Source: a virus
IMG/VR virus record: IMGVR_UViG_3300037487_000790
Location: 1-35,246 of that record
Direction: 5' to 3' (one strand)
Length of the DNA: 35,246 nt
Numbering within the stretch: position 1 is the first letter of the stretch; every line of letters begins with the position of its first letter. Shown here in pieces: positions 10,148 to 17,340 of the stretch. A model generated the notes under the pieces. The model was given only the letters and a program-made list of their open reading frames with translations, searched no databases and had not been told where the DNA came from. The position numbers and the translations under genes are program-made.

Positions 10148-10738
10148 TCAACGGGCTTCCGCGCTTCCTGCGCCATCCTCGGCGCTCCTAGAGGCATCCG
10201 AGGCGAACCGGGACCGGAACTTCGCCATCGTCGCCTCGAATTCCGCCTTCTGCTCGTCGGTCATCGCTGACCACTTCCCGACCGGCCTCGACCCCTCCGC
10301 CGGCAGCGCGATCGCCCGCCGCAGCTGGTGCCTCTGGGCCTTCGCCGCAGCGACCTCGGCCTCAAGGTGCTCGCAGACCTCGGCGTAGCTCGGGAACCAC
10401 CGAAACTTGCGCGCCGCCGCGTCGAGGCTTGCCCGGCTGAACGCTGACCCCGGATATTCCAGCATCGCCGCGTAGGCCCTGGCCTTGGCATCGCCATCGG
10501 CCTCGCCCGGCTTGGTCGCCGTCAGGGTGCCAAGCGCCGAGATCCAGCGCAGCGCCAGCGCCTGCGGCGCGGGCTGCAGGGCGGCCTCGATCGCGGCGAG
10601 GGCGCGCTCAGCCTCGGCCTTCTGGGTCGAAGAAATCGCCAGCGGGGCTCCCGGCTGCTCGGTCTGCATCCTCCCGAGCAAGGCGCTCAGCGAGAACGAT
10701 AAACCCGTTGCGGGACTGAGATCGAGATCCTGTGCCAT
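10148..10738 (-). CDS. Putative helicase-loader-like replication protein
   Basis: The product is 196 residues. The N-terminal 35 residues are low complexity; the helical core (about 37-150) includes RWISALGTLTA, a Tyr/Pro turn YAAMLEYPGSAF and WFPSYAEVCEHLEAEV, a pattern seen in phage proteins encoded after YdaU/O-type initiators. The C-terminus is charged and Ala/Ser-rich. AAGGA lies nine bases before ATG 10738. The first 131 bases overlap the end of the ydaU-like gene in another frame. The loader role is inferred mostly from position. Confidence 0.5.
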   Translation of the reverse strand: MAQDLDLSPATGLSFSLSALLGRMQTEQPGAPLAISSTQKAEAERALAAIEAALQPAPQALALRWISALGTLTATKPGEADGDAKARAYAAMLEYPGSAFSRASLDAAARKFRWFPSYAEVCEHLEAEVAAAKAQRHQLRRAIALPAEGSRPVGKWSAMTDEQKAEFEATMAKFRSRFASDASRSAEDGAGSAEAR

Positions 10739-11438
10739 TGCCCTGCTTCCTTTCCGATGTCCGGCGCACCCAGTTGCGCCAGGTTGCCGACCAGTTGGTC
10801 TTGCGCCCGTCCGCGCCGGGCTTGCTCGTCCAGTAATCGCGGAACGACGCCGCCTCGCGCTCGACCGCGACGCCGAGGCTCGCCGCGAACCCTCGGTCCT
10901 CCTCCGTCGGTGACCAATCCGCCGGCAGGCGCGTCCCGCGATCGGCGCGCTCTGCGCGCGTCCCCCCAGACCCCCCAGAACTAAGAGGGACTTCTACGGT
11001 ATCTCTTTCCGTAGGAAAGGGTGGTTGTGGTTGTCTCTGTGGTTGTGTCAACGTAACGTTGTTCGTTACGTCCGACGTAACGTTGGTCGTTACGTTGCGC
11101 GCAGCCCTCGCTGCGGTCGCCGCTTCGGTGCGCTTGCGGCGGGCCTCGTACATCGCGGCGGCCTCGGCCAGTTCGTGCTCGATCCGGCCATGGTGCAGCG
11201 CACCATCTTCCTGCCGAAAGAACGCCAGCACGACCCCGGCTGCCTCGGACCACTCGGTCGGCGTCATGCGAGCCGTGCGGGCAAGCGCGCCGTCGTCCAG
11301 CCGCAGAGGCCCGCCCGCGCGCCAGTAGGCCATGATGAGGTGCAGGTATGCGCCGCTCTGCGCGGCTGTCAGGTGCGCCGTGTCCGCGAGGTAGTCCGCG
11401 ACGTACAGCGGCATCCAGGTTGTCGGTCTTCCGGCCAT
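10608..11438 (-). CDS. YdaU/DUF1376-family replication protein
   Basis: The product is 276 residues. Residues 8-105 carry the DUF1376 pattern (WMPLYVADYLADTAHLTA, GAYLHLIMAYWRAGGPL, FFRQEDGALHHGRIEHEL). A Thr/Asn/Val repeat linker follows at about 114-130, then a Gln/Pro stretch. The C-terminal domain (about 185-245) includes FRDYWTSKPG and TNWSATWRNWVRR, typical of YdaU-type and O-like replication proteins. The start ATG 11438 begins the conserved domain; the frame extends to 11561 but the extension looks random and spans two hairpins. The DNA for the linker is a symmetric repeat array that could be the origin. The end overlaps the next gene by 131 bases. Confidence 0.75.
   Translation of the reverse strand: MAGRPTTWMPLYVADYLADTAHLTAAQSGAYLHLIMAYWRAGGPLRLDDGALARTARMTPTEWSEAAGVVLAFFRQEDGALHHGRIEHELAEAAAMYEARRKRTEAATAARAARNVTTNVTSDVTNNVTLTQPQRQPQPPFPTERDTVEVPLSSGGSGGTRAERADRGTRLPADWSPTEEDRGFAASLGVAVEREAASFRDYWTSKPGADGRKTNWSATWRNWVRRTSERKQGNGTGSRSQSRNGFIVLAERLAREDADRAAGSPAGDFFDPEGRG
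10994..11014. repeat. Inverted repeat CTACGG-N9-CCGTAG in ydaU
   Basis: A perfect 6-bp inverted repeat inside the ydaU coding region, just 3' (in gene direction) of the symmetric array at 11051-11095. The bases between them are strongly T/G-skewed on the plus strand. It may belong to a replication origin. Confidence 0.35.
11051..11095. repeat. Iteron-like array inside ydaU, candidate replication origin
   Basis: Two 21-bp units start at 11051 and 11075 (24-bp period) and differ at one base. Each consists of ACGTAACG, five bases, then CGTTACGT, a perfect 8-bp inverted repeat. They encode an Asn/Val/Thr repeat linker. The lambda origin likewise lies inside its initiator gene O as repeated inverted-repeat iterons; that comparison is the basis for the origin proposal. 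Confidence 0.55.
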
Positions 11439-11501
11439 GATCGTCCTTTCACAGGTTGATCCGGCCGACCTCGCGCGATAGGTTCGCGGTGCCATTGTGG
11501 C

Positions 11502-11556
11502 CGGACCAGTTGGGTGGTCCGCTGAGCCCCGGTCTGCTTGCAACAGGCCGGGGCTC
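11502..11556. other. Two adjacent hairpins in the ydaU leader
   Basis: CGGACCA (11502-11508) pairs with TGGTCCG (11515-11521). Next to it, GAGCCCCGG (11524-11532) pairs with CCGGGGCTC (11548-11556), with inner CTG/CAG pairing around a 7-base loop. They lie in the 233-base gap between the coiled-coil gene and ydaU, about 65 bases before the ydaU start on the minus strand. No T-run follows on that strand. A terminator/attenuator, mRNA leader structure or small RNA are all possible. Confidence 0.45.
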
Positions 11557-11630
11557 GTCATTTGTGCCGGGCGTCAGCGCTTCTGGTCAAGCAAGAACGC
11601 GATGTGAGCGGCTTGTGTAGCGTCTGTCGA

Positions 11631-11685
11631 ACGGGCGTTGAACGGACGTTGAGCGGGCGCTAGACCGGTGTTCAACGGGCGTTCA
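11631..11685. repeat. Five tandem 11-bp repeats, iteron-like
   Basis: Units ACGGGCGTTGA, ACGGACGTTGA, GCGGGCGCTAG, ACCGGTGTTCA and ACGGGCGTTCA follow each other without gaps. The period is close to one helical turn, so a protein could line up on one face. The array runs from the gap before ydaU into the last codons of the coiled-coil gene (stop at 11672). Confidence 0.6.
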
Positions 11686-12177: not shown

Positions 12178-12432
12178 CTAGAGCGCGAGGCCCAGCTGGA
12201 CCCCGAGCCGATCAGCGTAGAGCGCGACCGCCTGCAGCCGCTCCTGCTCCTTCGCCCGCTTGCGCTCGTCGCGGCGCAGCTGCACCACGCGCACCAGCGC
12301 AGCGGGGTCGTAGCCCGCGGACTTGATCTCGACGCGCAGCTGCTTGATGTCCTCGCGCGCTTCGTCGGCGGCGTCGAGCAGGCGGGTCAGGCGGTCGGCG
12401 TAGCTCGTCAGGTCATCGTTGATGCCGGTCAT
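12178..12432 (-). CDS. GapR-like (DUF2312) DNA-binding protein
   Basis: The product is 84 residues. It follows the DUF2312/GapR plan: an N-terminal coiled-coil helix (LTSYADRLTRLLDAADEARE), then DIKQLRVEIKSAGYDPAAL and VVQLRRDERKRAKEQERL. Caulobacter GapR is about 89 residues and binds overtwisted AT-rich DNA during replication. A role on phage replication or transcription supercoils is inferred. ATGA overlap with the RusA stop. Carriage of this family supports an alphaproteobacterial host. Confidence 0.75.
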   Translation of the reverse strand: MTGINDDLTSYADRLTRLLDAADEAREDIKQLRVEIKSAGYDPAALVRVVQLRRDERKRAKEQERLQAVALYADRLGVQLGLAL

Positions 12433-14613: not shown

Positions 14614-14762
14614 CCAGCGAACGCCGCAAGCTGTTGCGGACCTACCGCAGCATGATCCGCAAGGCGGCTCACGCCCCGCGCGGCAAGAAGCAGTCCCGCA
14701 TGGCCGCGCTGCGCGGCTGGGTCCACCGCCAGCTCAAGAGGGAGACGACCAATGATCGATGA
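14610..14762 (+). CDS. Small basic protein (50 aa)
   Basis: ATG 14610 overlaps the previous stop (ATGA). The 50-residue product is strongly basic (about a third Arg/Lys) with helices RRKLLRTYRSMIRKAAHAPR and RMAALRGWVHRQLKRE. The stop lies 11 bases inside the next gene, whose ribosome-binding site (AGAGGGAGAC) is within this frame. DNA or RNA contact is possible from charge only. Confidence 0.5.
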   Translation: MTSERRKLLRTYRSMIRKAAHAPRGKKQSRMAALRGWVHRQLKRETTNDR

Positions 14763-15621
14763 AGGCATCCACCACGACGTTTCGTTCGACGCCTACCTGT
14801 CCGGCACCGGCATTCCGGCCCCGGCGGTCAGCGGCAGCGACCTCGTGGCCTACGAGACCGAGTGCCCGGCACACGCCTTCGCGTTCTGGCGCGGTAACCC
14901 GGATCGCATCCAGTCGGACAGCACGCCCGCGATGACGCTCGGCACCGCCGCGCACTGCTACATCCTGGAGGGCGCCGACGCCTTCCACGACCGCTACGCG
15001 ATCAAGCCCGAGGGCCTCAACTTCTCGACGCGCGAGGGCCGGGCGTGGCGCGACGCGCAGGAGGGCCGGTCAATCATCAGCTTCGACGCGCACATGCAGA
15101 TCATCTCGATGCGCGACGCGCTCATGGCCCAGCCCGACGCCCGCCGCCTCTTGGAGGCCGGCGGTCGAGCCGAGGTCACGATGGTCGCGAAAGACGAGGA
15201 AACCGGCCTGACGCTGTTGTGCAGGCCCGACCTATACATCGCCCGCGCCGGGCTGGCGGTGAACCTCAAGACCACCGCGAATCCCGCGCCGAACGCATGG
15301 CGGCGCACCTGCGCCAATCTCCGCTACGACCTGGGCGACGCGATGTCCCGCCTCGTCGCCGGGTTGCTCGGCGTCCAGCGACCCTCGCACGCCTTCATGG
15401 TCGTCGGCAGCAACGCCCCGCATCTAGGCTACGTCGCCGCGCTCAGCGCCGACGCCGCCAGCGCCGCCGACCAGCAGCTGCGCCAGATCCTGCGCCGCTT
15501 CGCGAAATCTGTTGCGGACAACGACTGGCCGGGTTACACCGCGGGTGTTCTCGAAATCGGCCTTCCGCAGTGGGCGGCCAACGAGATCGCAGCCAGCATC
15601 CAGAGGGAGTACGTCGCATGA
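14752..15621 (+). CDS. Exonuclease VIII/RecE-like PD-(D/E)XK nuclease
   Basis: The product is 289 residues. It has the RecB/RecE-type early motif LGTAAHCYILEG (63-74), Glu141 in AEVTMVAKDEETG, Asp160 in RPDLY and Lys173 in VNLKTT, followed by the Tyr/Asp segment NLRYDLGD. The acidic residue normally two positions before the lysine is Asn171 here. It is followed by a RecT-type annealase in the usual exonuclease-annealase pair. It should resect 5' strands at phage DNA ends to feed single-strand annealing, provided the Asn tolerates metal binding. Confidence 0.8.
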   Translation: MIDEGIHHDVSFDAYLSGTGIPAPAVSGSDLVAYETECPAHAFAFWRGNPDRIQSDSTPAMTLGTAAHCYILEGADAFHDRYAIKPEGLNFSTREGRAWRDAQEGRSIISFDAHMQIISMRDALMAQPDARRLLEAGGRAEVTMVAKDEETGLTLLCRPDLYIARAGLAVNLKTTANPAPNAWRRTCANLRYDLGDAMSRLVAGLLGVQRPSHAFMVVGSNAPHLGYVAALSADAASAADQQLRQILRRFAKSVADNDWPGYTAGVLEIGLPQWAANEIAASIQREYVA

Positions 15622-16562
15622 CCAACGTGACCAACCTGCCGACCGCCACCGCGCCGCGCGCGGTCTCGGTGGACTTCAACGACCCCGTCGCCGTCTATCT
15701 CGACAGCGACATCTTCGGCCAGCTGCAGCGTGTCGCGAAGCTGATGTCGTCGGCCTCGCTAGTCCCCGCGCACCTGCGCGGCGAGGGCAAGTTGGGCGAC
15801 TGCTTCCTCGTCGCCGCCCAGGCGTTCCGGTGGCGGATGGACCCGTTCGCGGTTGCGCAGCACACCTACGTCTTGTCGGGCAAGCTCGGCTACGAGGGCA
15901 AGCTGATCGCCGCGATCGTGAACGCCTCGGGCAAGCTGCAGGGCAGCCTCGACTACCGCTATAGCGGCGCGGGCGACCAGCGCAGCGTGACGGTGTCGGG
16001 CAAGCTCGTCGGTGACGCCGAGCCGCGCGAGGTCATCGGCACCGTCGCGGGCTGGAAGACCAGCAACGAGCAATGGAAGAAGAACACCGATCAGATGCTG
16101 GCGTACCGCGGCGCGCGCGAGTGGGCGCGCAGGTACATGCCCGAGGCGATCCTCGGCATCCACGCCGACGACGACCTCGCCGGCAGCGCGCCGACCAGCG
16201 TCACCATGCGCGACATCACCCCGCCCCCCGCCCAGTCGCCGCTCGCCGCGGTGACGCAGGCGATGGACGCCCTCCTCGATGCCACCGAACAAGAGGCCGA
16301 CAACACCGCGCCTGCCGCGTCGGATGCAGACTCCCCGGCTGCAGCGTCCTCGGACGCCCCGACAGGCGCACTCCCGCAGGAGCTGGCCGAGCGCGCTCGC
16401 GCCATCGTCGCGGCGATCCGCAAGGCCCAGACGGCCAAGGACATCGACCGCGTGCTGCTCGCGCAGCGCGGCAACCTGGACGACATCAGCGCCGCGTCGC
16501 CAGACGCGCACGAGCGCATCATGGAGGAGAGCCGCCGCCGGGTGGCCGAGGTGGCAGGGTGA
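15618..16562 (+). CDS. recT: RecT-family single-strand annealing protein
   Basis: The product is 314 residues. The core (about 25-195) has the RecT pattern: FGQLQRVAKLMSSASLVPAH, FLVAAQAFRWRMDPFAVAQH, LGYEGKLIAAIVNASGKL, GTVAGWKTSNEQWKKNTDQM and a Tyr/Arg motif YRGAREWARRYMPEAILGI. A long Ala/Pro/Asp linker (about 200-260) leads to a C-terminal helix pair. ATG 15618 overlaps the exonuclease stop (ATGA), with GAGGGAG upstream. It pairs complementary single strands for recombination, probably helped by RusA. The C-terminal extension is variable in the family. Confidence 0.85.
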   Translation: MTNVTNLPTATAPRAVSVDFNDPVAVYLDSDIFGQLQRVAKLMSSASLVPAHLRGEGKLGDCFLVAAQAFRWRMDPFAVAQHTYVLSGKLGYEGKLIAAIVNASGKLQGSLDYRYSGAGDQRSVTVSGKLVGDAEPREVIGTVAGWKTSNEQWKKNTDQMLAYRGAREWARRYMPEAILGIHADDDLAGSAPTSVTMRDITPPPAQSPLAAVTQAMDALLDATEQEADNTAPAASDADSPAAASSDAPTGALPQELAERARAIVAAIRKAQTAKDIDRVLLAQRGNLDDISAASPDAHERIMEESRRRVAEVAG

Positions 16563-16717
16563 GCGACGAGAATCCGCACATTCGCGCCGCCGGAGAGGCG
16601 TTCGGGTGGATGGAAGAGGACCGCTGGGCGAAAGGCCCGGCGGTCTACCTCATGGTCTCCGTGATCTTCGGCGCGATGACCGGCGGCGTCGTGATCGTGC
16701 TGGCGATGCTGCGATGA
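16559..16717 (+). CDS. Small membrane protein (52 aa)
   Basis: GTG 16559 overlaps the RecT stop (GTGA). The first 30 residues are soluble with FGWMEEDRWAKG; residues about 31-51 are one transmembrane helix (VYLMVSVIFGAMTGGVVIVL). The stop overlaps the methyltransferase start. An inner-membrane location is inferred. Function unknown; too few features for a family call. Confidence 0.55.
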   Translation: MSDENPHIRAAGEAFGWMEEDRWAKGPAVYLMVSVIFGAMTGGVVIVLAMLR

Positions 16718-17340
16718 CCCAGCTTCGCGTCCTCGTGGCCTGCGAGTATTCCGGCGTCGTGCGCCGCGCGTTCCTTGCGCGCGGCTGCGATGCGTGGTCG
16801 TGCGACCTGCTGCCGGCGGAGGACGGGTCGAACCGCCACATCCGCGGCGACGCGCGCGAGCTGCTCAAAGACGGCTGGGATCTGCTCATGGTCGCGCACC
16901 CGCCATGCACGCGGCTGTGCAACTCGGGCGTCCGGTGGCTCTCGACGCCGCCGCCGGGCAAGAGCGCGGCGCAGATGGAGCGTGAGCTGCGCGAGGGCGC
17001 GGCGTTGTTCAGCGCGTTTTGGAACGCGCCGATCTCGCGCGTCGCCGTGGAAAACCCGGTGATGCACCGGCATGCGAAGGCGCTGATCGAGAACTACGCG
17101 GAGCCCGCGCAGAGCATCCAACCGTGGCAGTTCGGTCATGGTGAGTGCAAGCGCACCTGCCTGTGGCTGCGCGGCCTGCCTCCGCTGAAGCCGACGAACG
17201 TCGTCGATGGCCGCGAGCAGCGGGTCCACCGAATGCCGCCGAGCCCGACGCGTTGGAAGGAGCGCAGCCGCTTCTATCCCGGCATCGCCGCGGCGATGGC
17301 CGATCAGTGGACCGAGCATGCGTGGAGGGCCGCAGCATGA
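16714..17340 (+). CDS. C5-cytosine DNA methyltransferase-like protein
   Basis: The product is 208 residues. A motif-I-like strand VLVACEYSGVVRRAF (7-20) and an acidic end of the second strand (WSCDLLP) are followed by the catalytic loop HPPCTRLCNSG with Cys65 and by VENPVM with Glu113, the equivalents of motifs IV and VI of C5 methyltransferases. Full-size enzymes are usually above 300 residues; the target-recognition region here is short. No restriction enzyme is nearby, so it is an orphan. It may protect phage DNA or modify cytosines in early transcription; motif I lacks the usual FxGxG glycines. Confidence 0.7.
   Translation: MTQLRVLVACEYSGVVRRAFLARGCDAWSCDLLPAEDGSNRHIRGDARELLKDGWDLLMVAHPPCTRLCNSGVRWLSTPPPGKSAAQMERELREGAALFSAFWNAPISRVAVENPVMHRHAKALIENYAEPAQSIQPWQFGHGECKRTCLWLRGLPPLKPTNVVDGREQRVHRMPPSPTRWKERSRFYPGIAAAMADQWTEHAWRAAA

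Follow-up and report, generated by a model that had tools for sequence, protein, structure and literature searches.

The window, a virus record of 35,246 bases that was analysed over its whole length, is a linear viral contig carrying terminase, portal, RecE/RecT-like recombination and lysis genes. On its minus strand lies a gene whose product belongs to the DUF1376/YdaU family, the curated Pfam cut-off having been passed; DUF1376 is officially a domain of unknown function. The following features were delineated in and around this gene:

10608-11438, minus strand: DUF1376/YdaU-like putative initiator gene (276 aa), with the likely ATG at 11438, after AAAGGA
11166-11417, minus strand: DUF1376 domain, proposed to be origin-binding and winged-helix-like (Pfam PF07120 and AF2 model)
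11049-11097, no strand assigned: iteron array of four 12-bp units (repeats, octamer search, codon-shuffle test, relatives)
11011-11048, minus strand: tract of strand-asymmetric composition whose coding strand is poor in G and resembles (CAACCA)n, a proposed unwinding/ssDNA-capture element
10994-11019, no strand assigned: a pair of small, overlapping inverted repeats on the tract's far edge, read from the sequence
10731-10931, minus strand: C-terminal DnaT-like ssDNA-binding domain (PF17948)
10148-10738, minus strand: syntenic downstream gene encoding an all-helical protein of 196 aa, kept beside the DUF1376 gene in relatives

The open reading frame of the gene extends over 10608-11561 (317 aa), and the domain starts just past the ATG at 11438, as it does in relatives. 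The PF07120 match covers residues 49-132 of the 317-aa frame (E 3.6e-22, 79 bits versus the cut-off of 30.1). The AF2 model of the DUF1376 domain (pLDDT 93) consists of four helices, a beta hairpin and a long helix. Its structural matches are weak (best Z 6.0), with ORC2, plasmid initiators and the DnaD N-domain on top; those to the RepA_N/DnaD-type winged helices 4pql, 4pt7, 4pta and 2vn2 are weak as well, at Z 5.0-5.8, all below 8. Foldseek yielded no match in the PDB at E<=0.001, and no convincing relative came out of PDB searches by sequence, whether run with the whole protein or with profiles of its C- and N-domains. DUF1376 was the only domain detected in the Pfam scan of the protein (E<=0.001), with neither lambda-O nor RepA_N found. 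The C-terminal domain of the window protein matches PF17948, the DnaT DNA-binding domain, at E 0.0013, under the gathering cut-off; of 24 family members, 18 match the same Pfam family, the best of them at E 1.2e-7. Among the PHROGs, the gene matches 'primosomal' and 'replication initiation' families.

For the product of the downstream gene, there was no Pfam or PHROG match and no informative fold match; it is a candidate helicase loader or adaptor. In other phages, the DUF1376 gene follows Cro/CII-like genes, or precedes genes for a helicase loader, DnaB, a DnaA-like protein or P.

The repeats first noticed in the sequence-only reading lie, as was claimed there, inside the ydaU-like gene. Their positions are as follows:

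11052-11058, 11064-11070, 11076-11082 and 11088-11094: iteron cores CGTWACG
11051-11058 (plus), 11064-11071 (minus), 11075-11082 (plus) and 11088-11095 (minus): copies of ACGTAACG

Four copies of the octamer ACGTAACG are present in the 35-kb window, all of them within the array, compared with 0.42 expected, and four copies were reached in none of 100 dinucleotide shuffles. The sequence-only reading had described these copies as 8-bp inverted repeats arranged in two 24-bp units. The four copies stand, and the 24-bp repeat itself was recovered (family D3, 95%), but four units of 12 bp fit better than two of 24 bp: the natural repeat unit is 12 bp x 4, with the palindromic core CGT-W-ACG. CGTAACG and CGTTACG are mutually reverse-complementary, and the alternation of GTA and GTT valine codons thus produces the apparent inverted repeats. 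In relatives L006-L016, there are five copies in direct orientation at 12-bp spacing, so that the 12-bp register is retained.

The array encodes the linker N-V-T-T-N-V-T-S-D-V-T-N-N-V-T, which joins the DUF1376 and DnaT-like domains, in agreement with the repetitive Asn/Val/Thr linker proposed from the sequence. The repeats could accordingly be a by-product of protein-level selection on a low-complexity linker (N-V-T or Q-P), given that the segment does encode a repetitive linker and that its 12-bp period is in frame. The codons argue otherwise. When synonymous codons of the gene were shuffled with the protein kept, none of 20,000 shuffles yielded four copies of ACGTAACG (mean 0.42). In 10 distinct linkers of type A, all 46 valine codons of the [N/D]VT motifs are GTA or GTT (39 of them GTA) and all 46 threonine codons are ACG, whereas elsewhere in the type A genes GTA and GTT together account for 18 of 93 valine codons, and GTA for two. 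Octamer count, codon-shuffle test and valine codon usage all point to constraint on the array at the DNA level. Together with the out-of-frame 11-bp period found in most relatives (see below), the shuffle nulls and the abnormal valine codons make selection on the linker the least credible of the explanations considered here.

A second array, with an 11-bp period of GAACGGRCGTT, is located at 11620-11684 of the window, where it straddles the end of the upstream open reading frame. GAACGGRCGTT is the reverse complement of the type B iteron GTTCAACG, and the array was found in few relatives only (L022 and L029). It was set aside as a part of the origin because most relatives are without it.

On the side of the iterons proximal to the DnaT-like domain, the coding strand reads CAACCACAGAGACAACCACAACCACCC. 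The longest C-less run of the window on the plus strand is located here, at 11011-11034 (24 nt), consistent with the T/G-skewed plus-strand neighbour reported earlier, and by computed stability the weakest 100 bp of the window, 10976-11075, include the tract. In the G-less-run test, the window reached p 0.02; in a plain tandem-repeat test of the hexanucleotide tract, it was not significant (p 0.70), and across the family this test, with 19 of 129 clusters at p<=0.01, was weaker than the iteron test. The additional inverted repeat noted earlier was also found, as one of two that overlap:

11005-11019: inverted repeat CTTTCC-GTA-GGAAAG, retained with loop changes in type A relatives
10994-11014: inverted repeat CTACGG/CCGTAG

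The suggestion that iterons inside the initiator gene lie beside an unwinding region thus held up in all computational tests except cumulative GC skew. The skew is deepest near 16 kb, with a shallow local minimum near 11 kb, and is uninformative on the origin.

To place these features in the family, 378 DUF1376 genes were grouped into 129 clusters (75% identity over domain plus linker), and a repeat-density score, from which short-period repeats were left out, was compared with the codon-shuffle null. Repeat density exceeded the null in 63 of the 129 clusters at p<=0.01 and in 87 at p<=0.05, the relatives being partly dependent on one another; among control open reading frames from the same loci, the corresponding counts were 3 and 7 of 114. 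Under stricter clustering, 35 of 70 and 12 of 26 clusters passed p<=0.01, and under the strictest (45%), 4 of 17 passed p<=0.01 and 9 of 17 passed 0.05. About half of the relatives miss individual significance at 0.01; the individually assessed AH02 and Azospirillum phage Cd were among the non-significant ones. A p of 0.001 was obtained both for the positive control, lambda O, where the annotated iterons were picked up, and for ydaU of E. coli K-12, whereas cro, cII, P, ydaT and ydaV were not significant in the same test.

The layout is shared along with the repeats. The best repeat window starts directly after the DUF1376 domain in 90 of the 129 clusters, against an expectation of 21.5; in 96, against 26.4, the repeats are followed by the longest run free of G or of C. 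Over all clusters, this run lacks G on the coding strand in 91 of 129. An 8-mer recurs exactly 11 bp apart in 88 of the 129 linkers (null mean 24, maximum 33), with further spacing peaks at 12, 22-23, 25 and 33-35 bp, near multiples of 11-12. A period of 11 bp shifts the reading frame and is therefore a property of the DNA, not one caused by protein repeats. The iteron words vary by lineage and include ACGTAACG, GTTCAACG, TCCGTWACGGA, AGCAWTGC, TGCAAATG, CAATCGAA and others.

Neutral tandem duplication by slippage in an unconstrained linker could also generate repeats at this place, and the length and sequence of the linker do change fast between relatives. However, the cores are conserved while the spacers vary, A/T exchanges affect the centre of symmetry, both orientations are represented among the copies, and a period of 11-12 bp persists across unrelated motif words. 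We consider slippage very improbable, ranking it barely above selection on the linker.

The word AGCAWTGC is shared by DUF1376 genes from viral contigs and from bacterial groups that are far apart (L283, L305, L306, L327, L377, L391 and L404), a recurrence that suggests a common specificity class or the spread of a cassette.

Natural chimeras connect the iterons with one of the two protein domains. In chimeric relatives whose C-termini are 93-96% identical, the N-domains share 22-31% identity, and each N-domain type comes with iterons and a tract of its own; close to nt 450 of the gene, immediately past the tract, the DNA changes from about 33-75% identity to values mostly of 77-100%. Conversely, Rac-SA53 and 683R6, which share 96% identity in the N-domain and 26% in the C-domain, have the same iteron type. 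K-12 ydaU was also compared with E. coli, where 1,492 genomes matched: among the partial matches listed, matching ends at nt 495 or starts at nt 497 or about 601, so that E. coli ydaU alleles diverge at about nt 495-497, beyond the repeats. Two of the partially matching genes combine the YdaU C-domain with an unrelated N-domain and have other palindromic repeats, GGTAACGCTGCCAGCGTTAC, along with a GAGGAA-type tract:

L418, 568-1362: E. coli prophage gene, YdaU C-domain with an unrelated N-domain, own palindromic repeats and GAGGAA linker tract
L419, 670-1458: E. coli prophage gene of the same composition

Judged from these alignments, iteron type tracks the N-terminal domain, not the C-terminal domain, as expected if the N-domain recognises the iterons. 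A precedent is known from plasmids, where pPR9 Rep represents a natural swap of N-domain and origin (PMC5703833).

Taken together, these observations indicate that the segment is, very probably, the core of an intragenic replication origin, predicted to be bound by the DUF1376 domain. We infer the following sequence of binding, melting, helicase loading and initiation at the array. The DUF1376 domain would bind the four 12-bp palindromic iterons (RACGTWACG) within its own gene, which also encode the flexible linker between the two domains of the protein. With protein bound at about one turn per iteron, a compact nucleoprotein array would form and melt the weak tract next to it, which lacks G (about 11011-11048). 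Once opened, the coding strand, predicted to fold poorly, would be captured by the DnaT-like C-domain, which, together with the next gene's protein or with factors of the host, might then load the replicative helicase.

Comparable arrangements have been described. In lambda and Stx-phage O, the initiator gene has dyad-symmetric iterons at its centre, adjacent to a tract that melts readily, and the O gene follows cro/cII and precedes P (PMC7466680). In pSK41 Rep, of the RepA_N type, four boxes inside rep are bound by the N-terminal winged helix, the origin encodes the linker, and the C-domain contacts the host, namely DnaG (PMC5703833). The window resembles lambda in having iterons inside the putative initiator gene adjoining a tract computed to be of low stability, and the repeat-density test picks up lambda O as well as E. 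coli ydaU, but the lambda iterons are 18-19 bp long and 20-24 bp apart, next to an AT-rich tract, whereas the window has 12-bp spacing, short cores, a G-less hexanucleotide tract and a DnaT-like C-domain. The lambda-like logic proposed in the sequence-only reading thus applies as a likeness of mechanism only, because there is no lambda-O Pfam match. Plasmid initiator structures are among the top fold matches, albeit weak ones (Z 4.9-5.8); unlike the RepA_N initiators, however, this gene belongs to a phage rather than a plasmid, and neither a RepA_N Pfam match nor such a chain in the PDB profile search was found. YdaU of the E. coli Rac prophage is of the DUF1376 family and has linker iterons, TGTTCAAAC / GTTTGAACA, but differs from the window in iteron word, C-domain and downstream gene. 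Under the best explanation, the candidate origin would work like lambda ori and pSK41 ori, a likeness claimed for the mechanism and not for ancestry.

An array of this kind might instead be an autoregulatory or incompatibility (handcuffing) site, or the operator of another phage protein, with replication beginning elsewhere. Sequence alone cannot tell a binding array from an origin, and the same phage has the second 11-bp array upstream, at 11620-11684. Yet the array adjoins the least stable stretch of the window, a strand-asymmetric tract follows the array family-wide, the layout matches that of lambda O, whose array is the origin, and the upstream array is missing from most relatives. A regulatory site is therefore unlikely, if clearly less so than selection on the linker or slippage, and an intragenic origin remains the preferred reading.

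At the level of the gene, replication annotation already exists, in PHROGs and in a RefSeq record named 'phage replication initiator YdaU family protein'. Among the titles and abstract openings of the searched papers on DUF1376/YdaU, no origin study was found, which leaves novelty unproven; what appears to be new is the origin within the gene, the 11-12-bp iteron rule, the asymmetric tract and the cassette exchange. More tentatively, and as a possibility we would not yet favour, DUF1376 proteins may constitute a large group of initiators that has gone unrecognised, its N-domain, 11-12-bp iterons and strand-asymmetric hexanucleotide tract forming an exchangeable replicon-specificity cassette, with the tract as a kind of unwinding/ssDNA-capture element distinct from an ordinary AT-rich region. 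On this reading, the two E. coli prophage genes, with their unrelated N-domain and own repeats, are cases in which even the whole cassette was replaced. The natural chimeras show exchange of domain and iterons as a unit, by which temperate phages could alter their replication specificity and still keep the C-terminal half. The proposal gives a widespread but functionally uncharacterised domain a testable role, and it locates origins at single-base precision, as predictions, in many phages and prophages, Rac of E. coli K-12 among them. Rac is reported to hold an active origin, oriJ (PMC3945230), which could be sought inside ydaU. How helicases are loaded at such origins becomes a new question in view of the strand-asymmetric hexanucleotide tract that recurs there.

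Several other genes were recorded in the course of the analysis. Two genes upstream of the putative initiator, at 12178-12432, the window encodes a GapR-like DNA-binding protein (PF10073, E 1.7e-10); DUF2312/UPF0335 genes are also located near DUF1376 genes in Acetobacter and Bradyrhizobium phages. At 14752-17340, exonuclease VIII-like and RecT-like genes are followed by a DNA methyltransferase gene, on the strand opposite to the replication genes. The DUF1376 gene of Pseudomonas phage PfAn1 (L255, 1201-1889) is unannotated in the public record.
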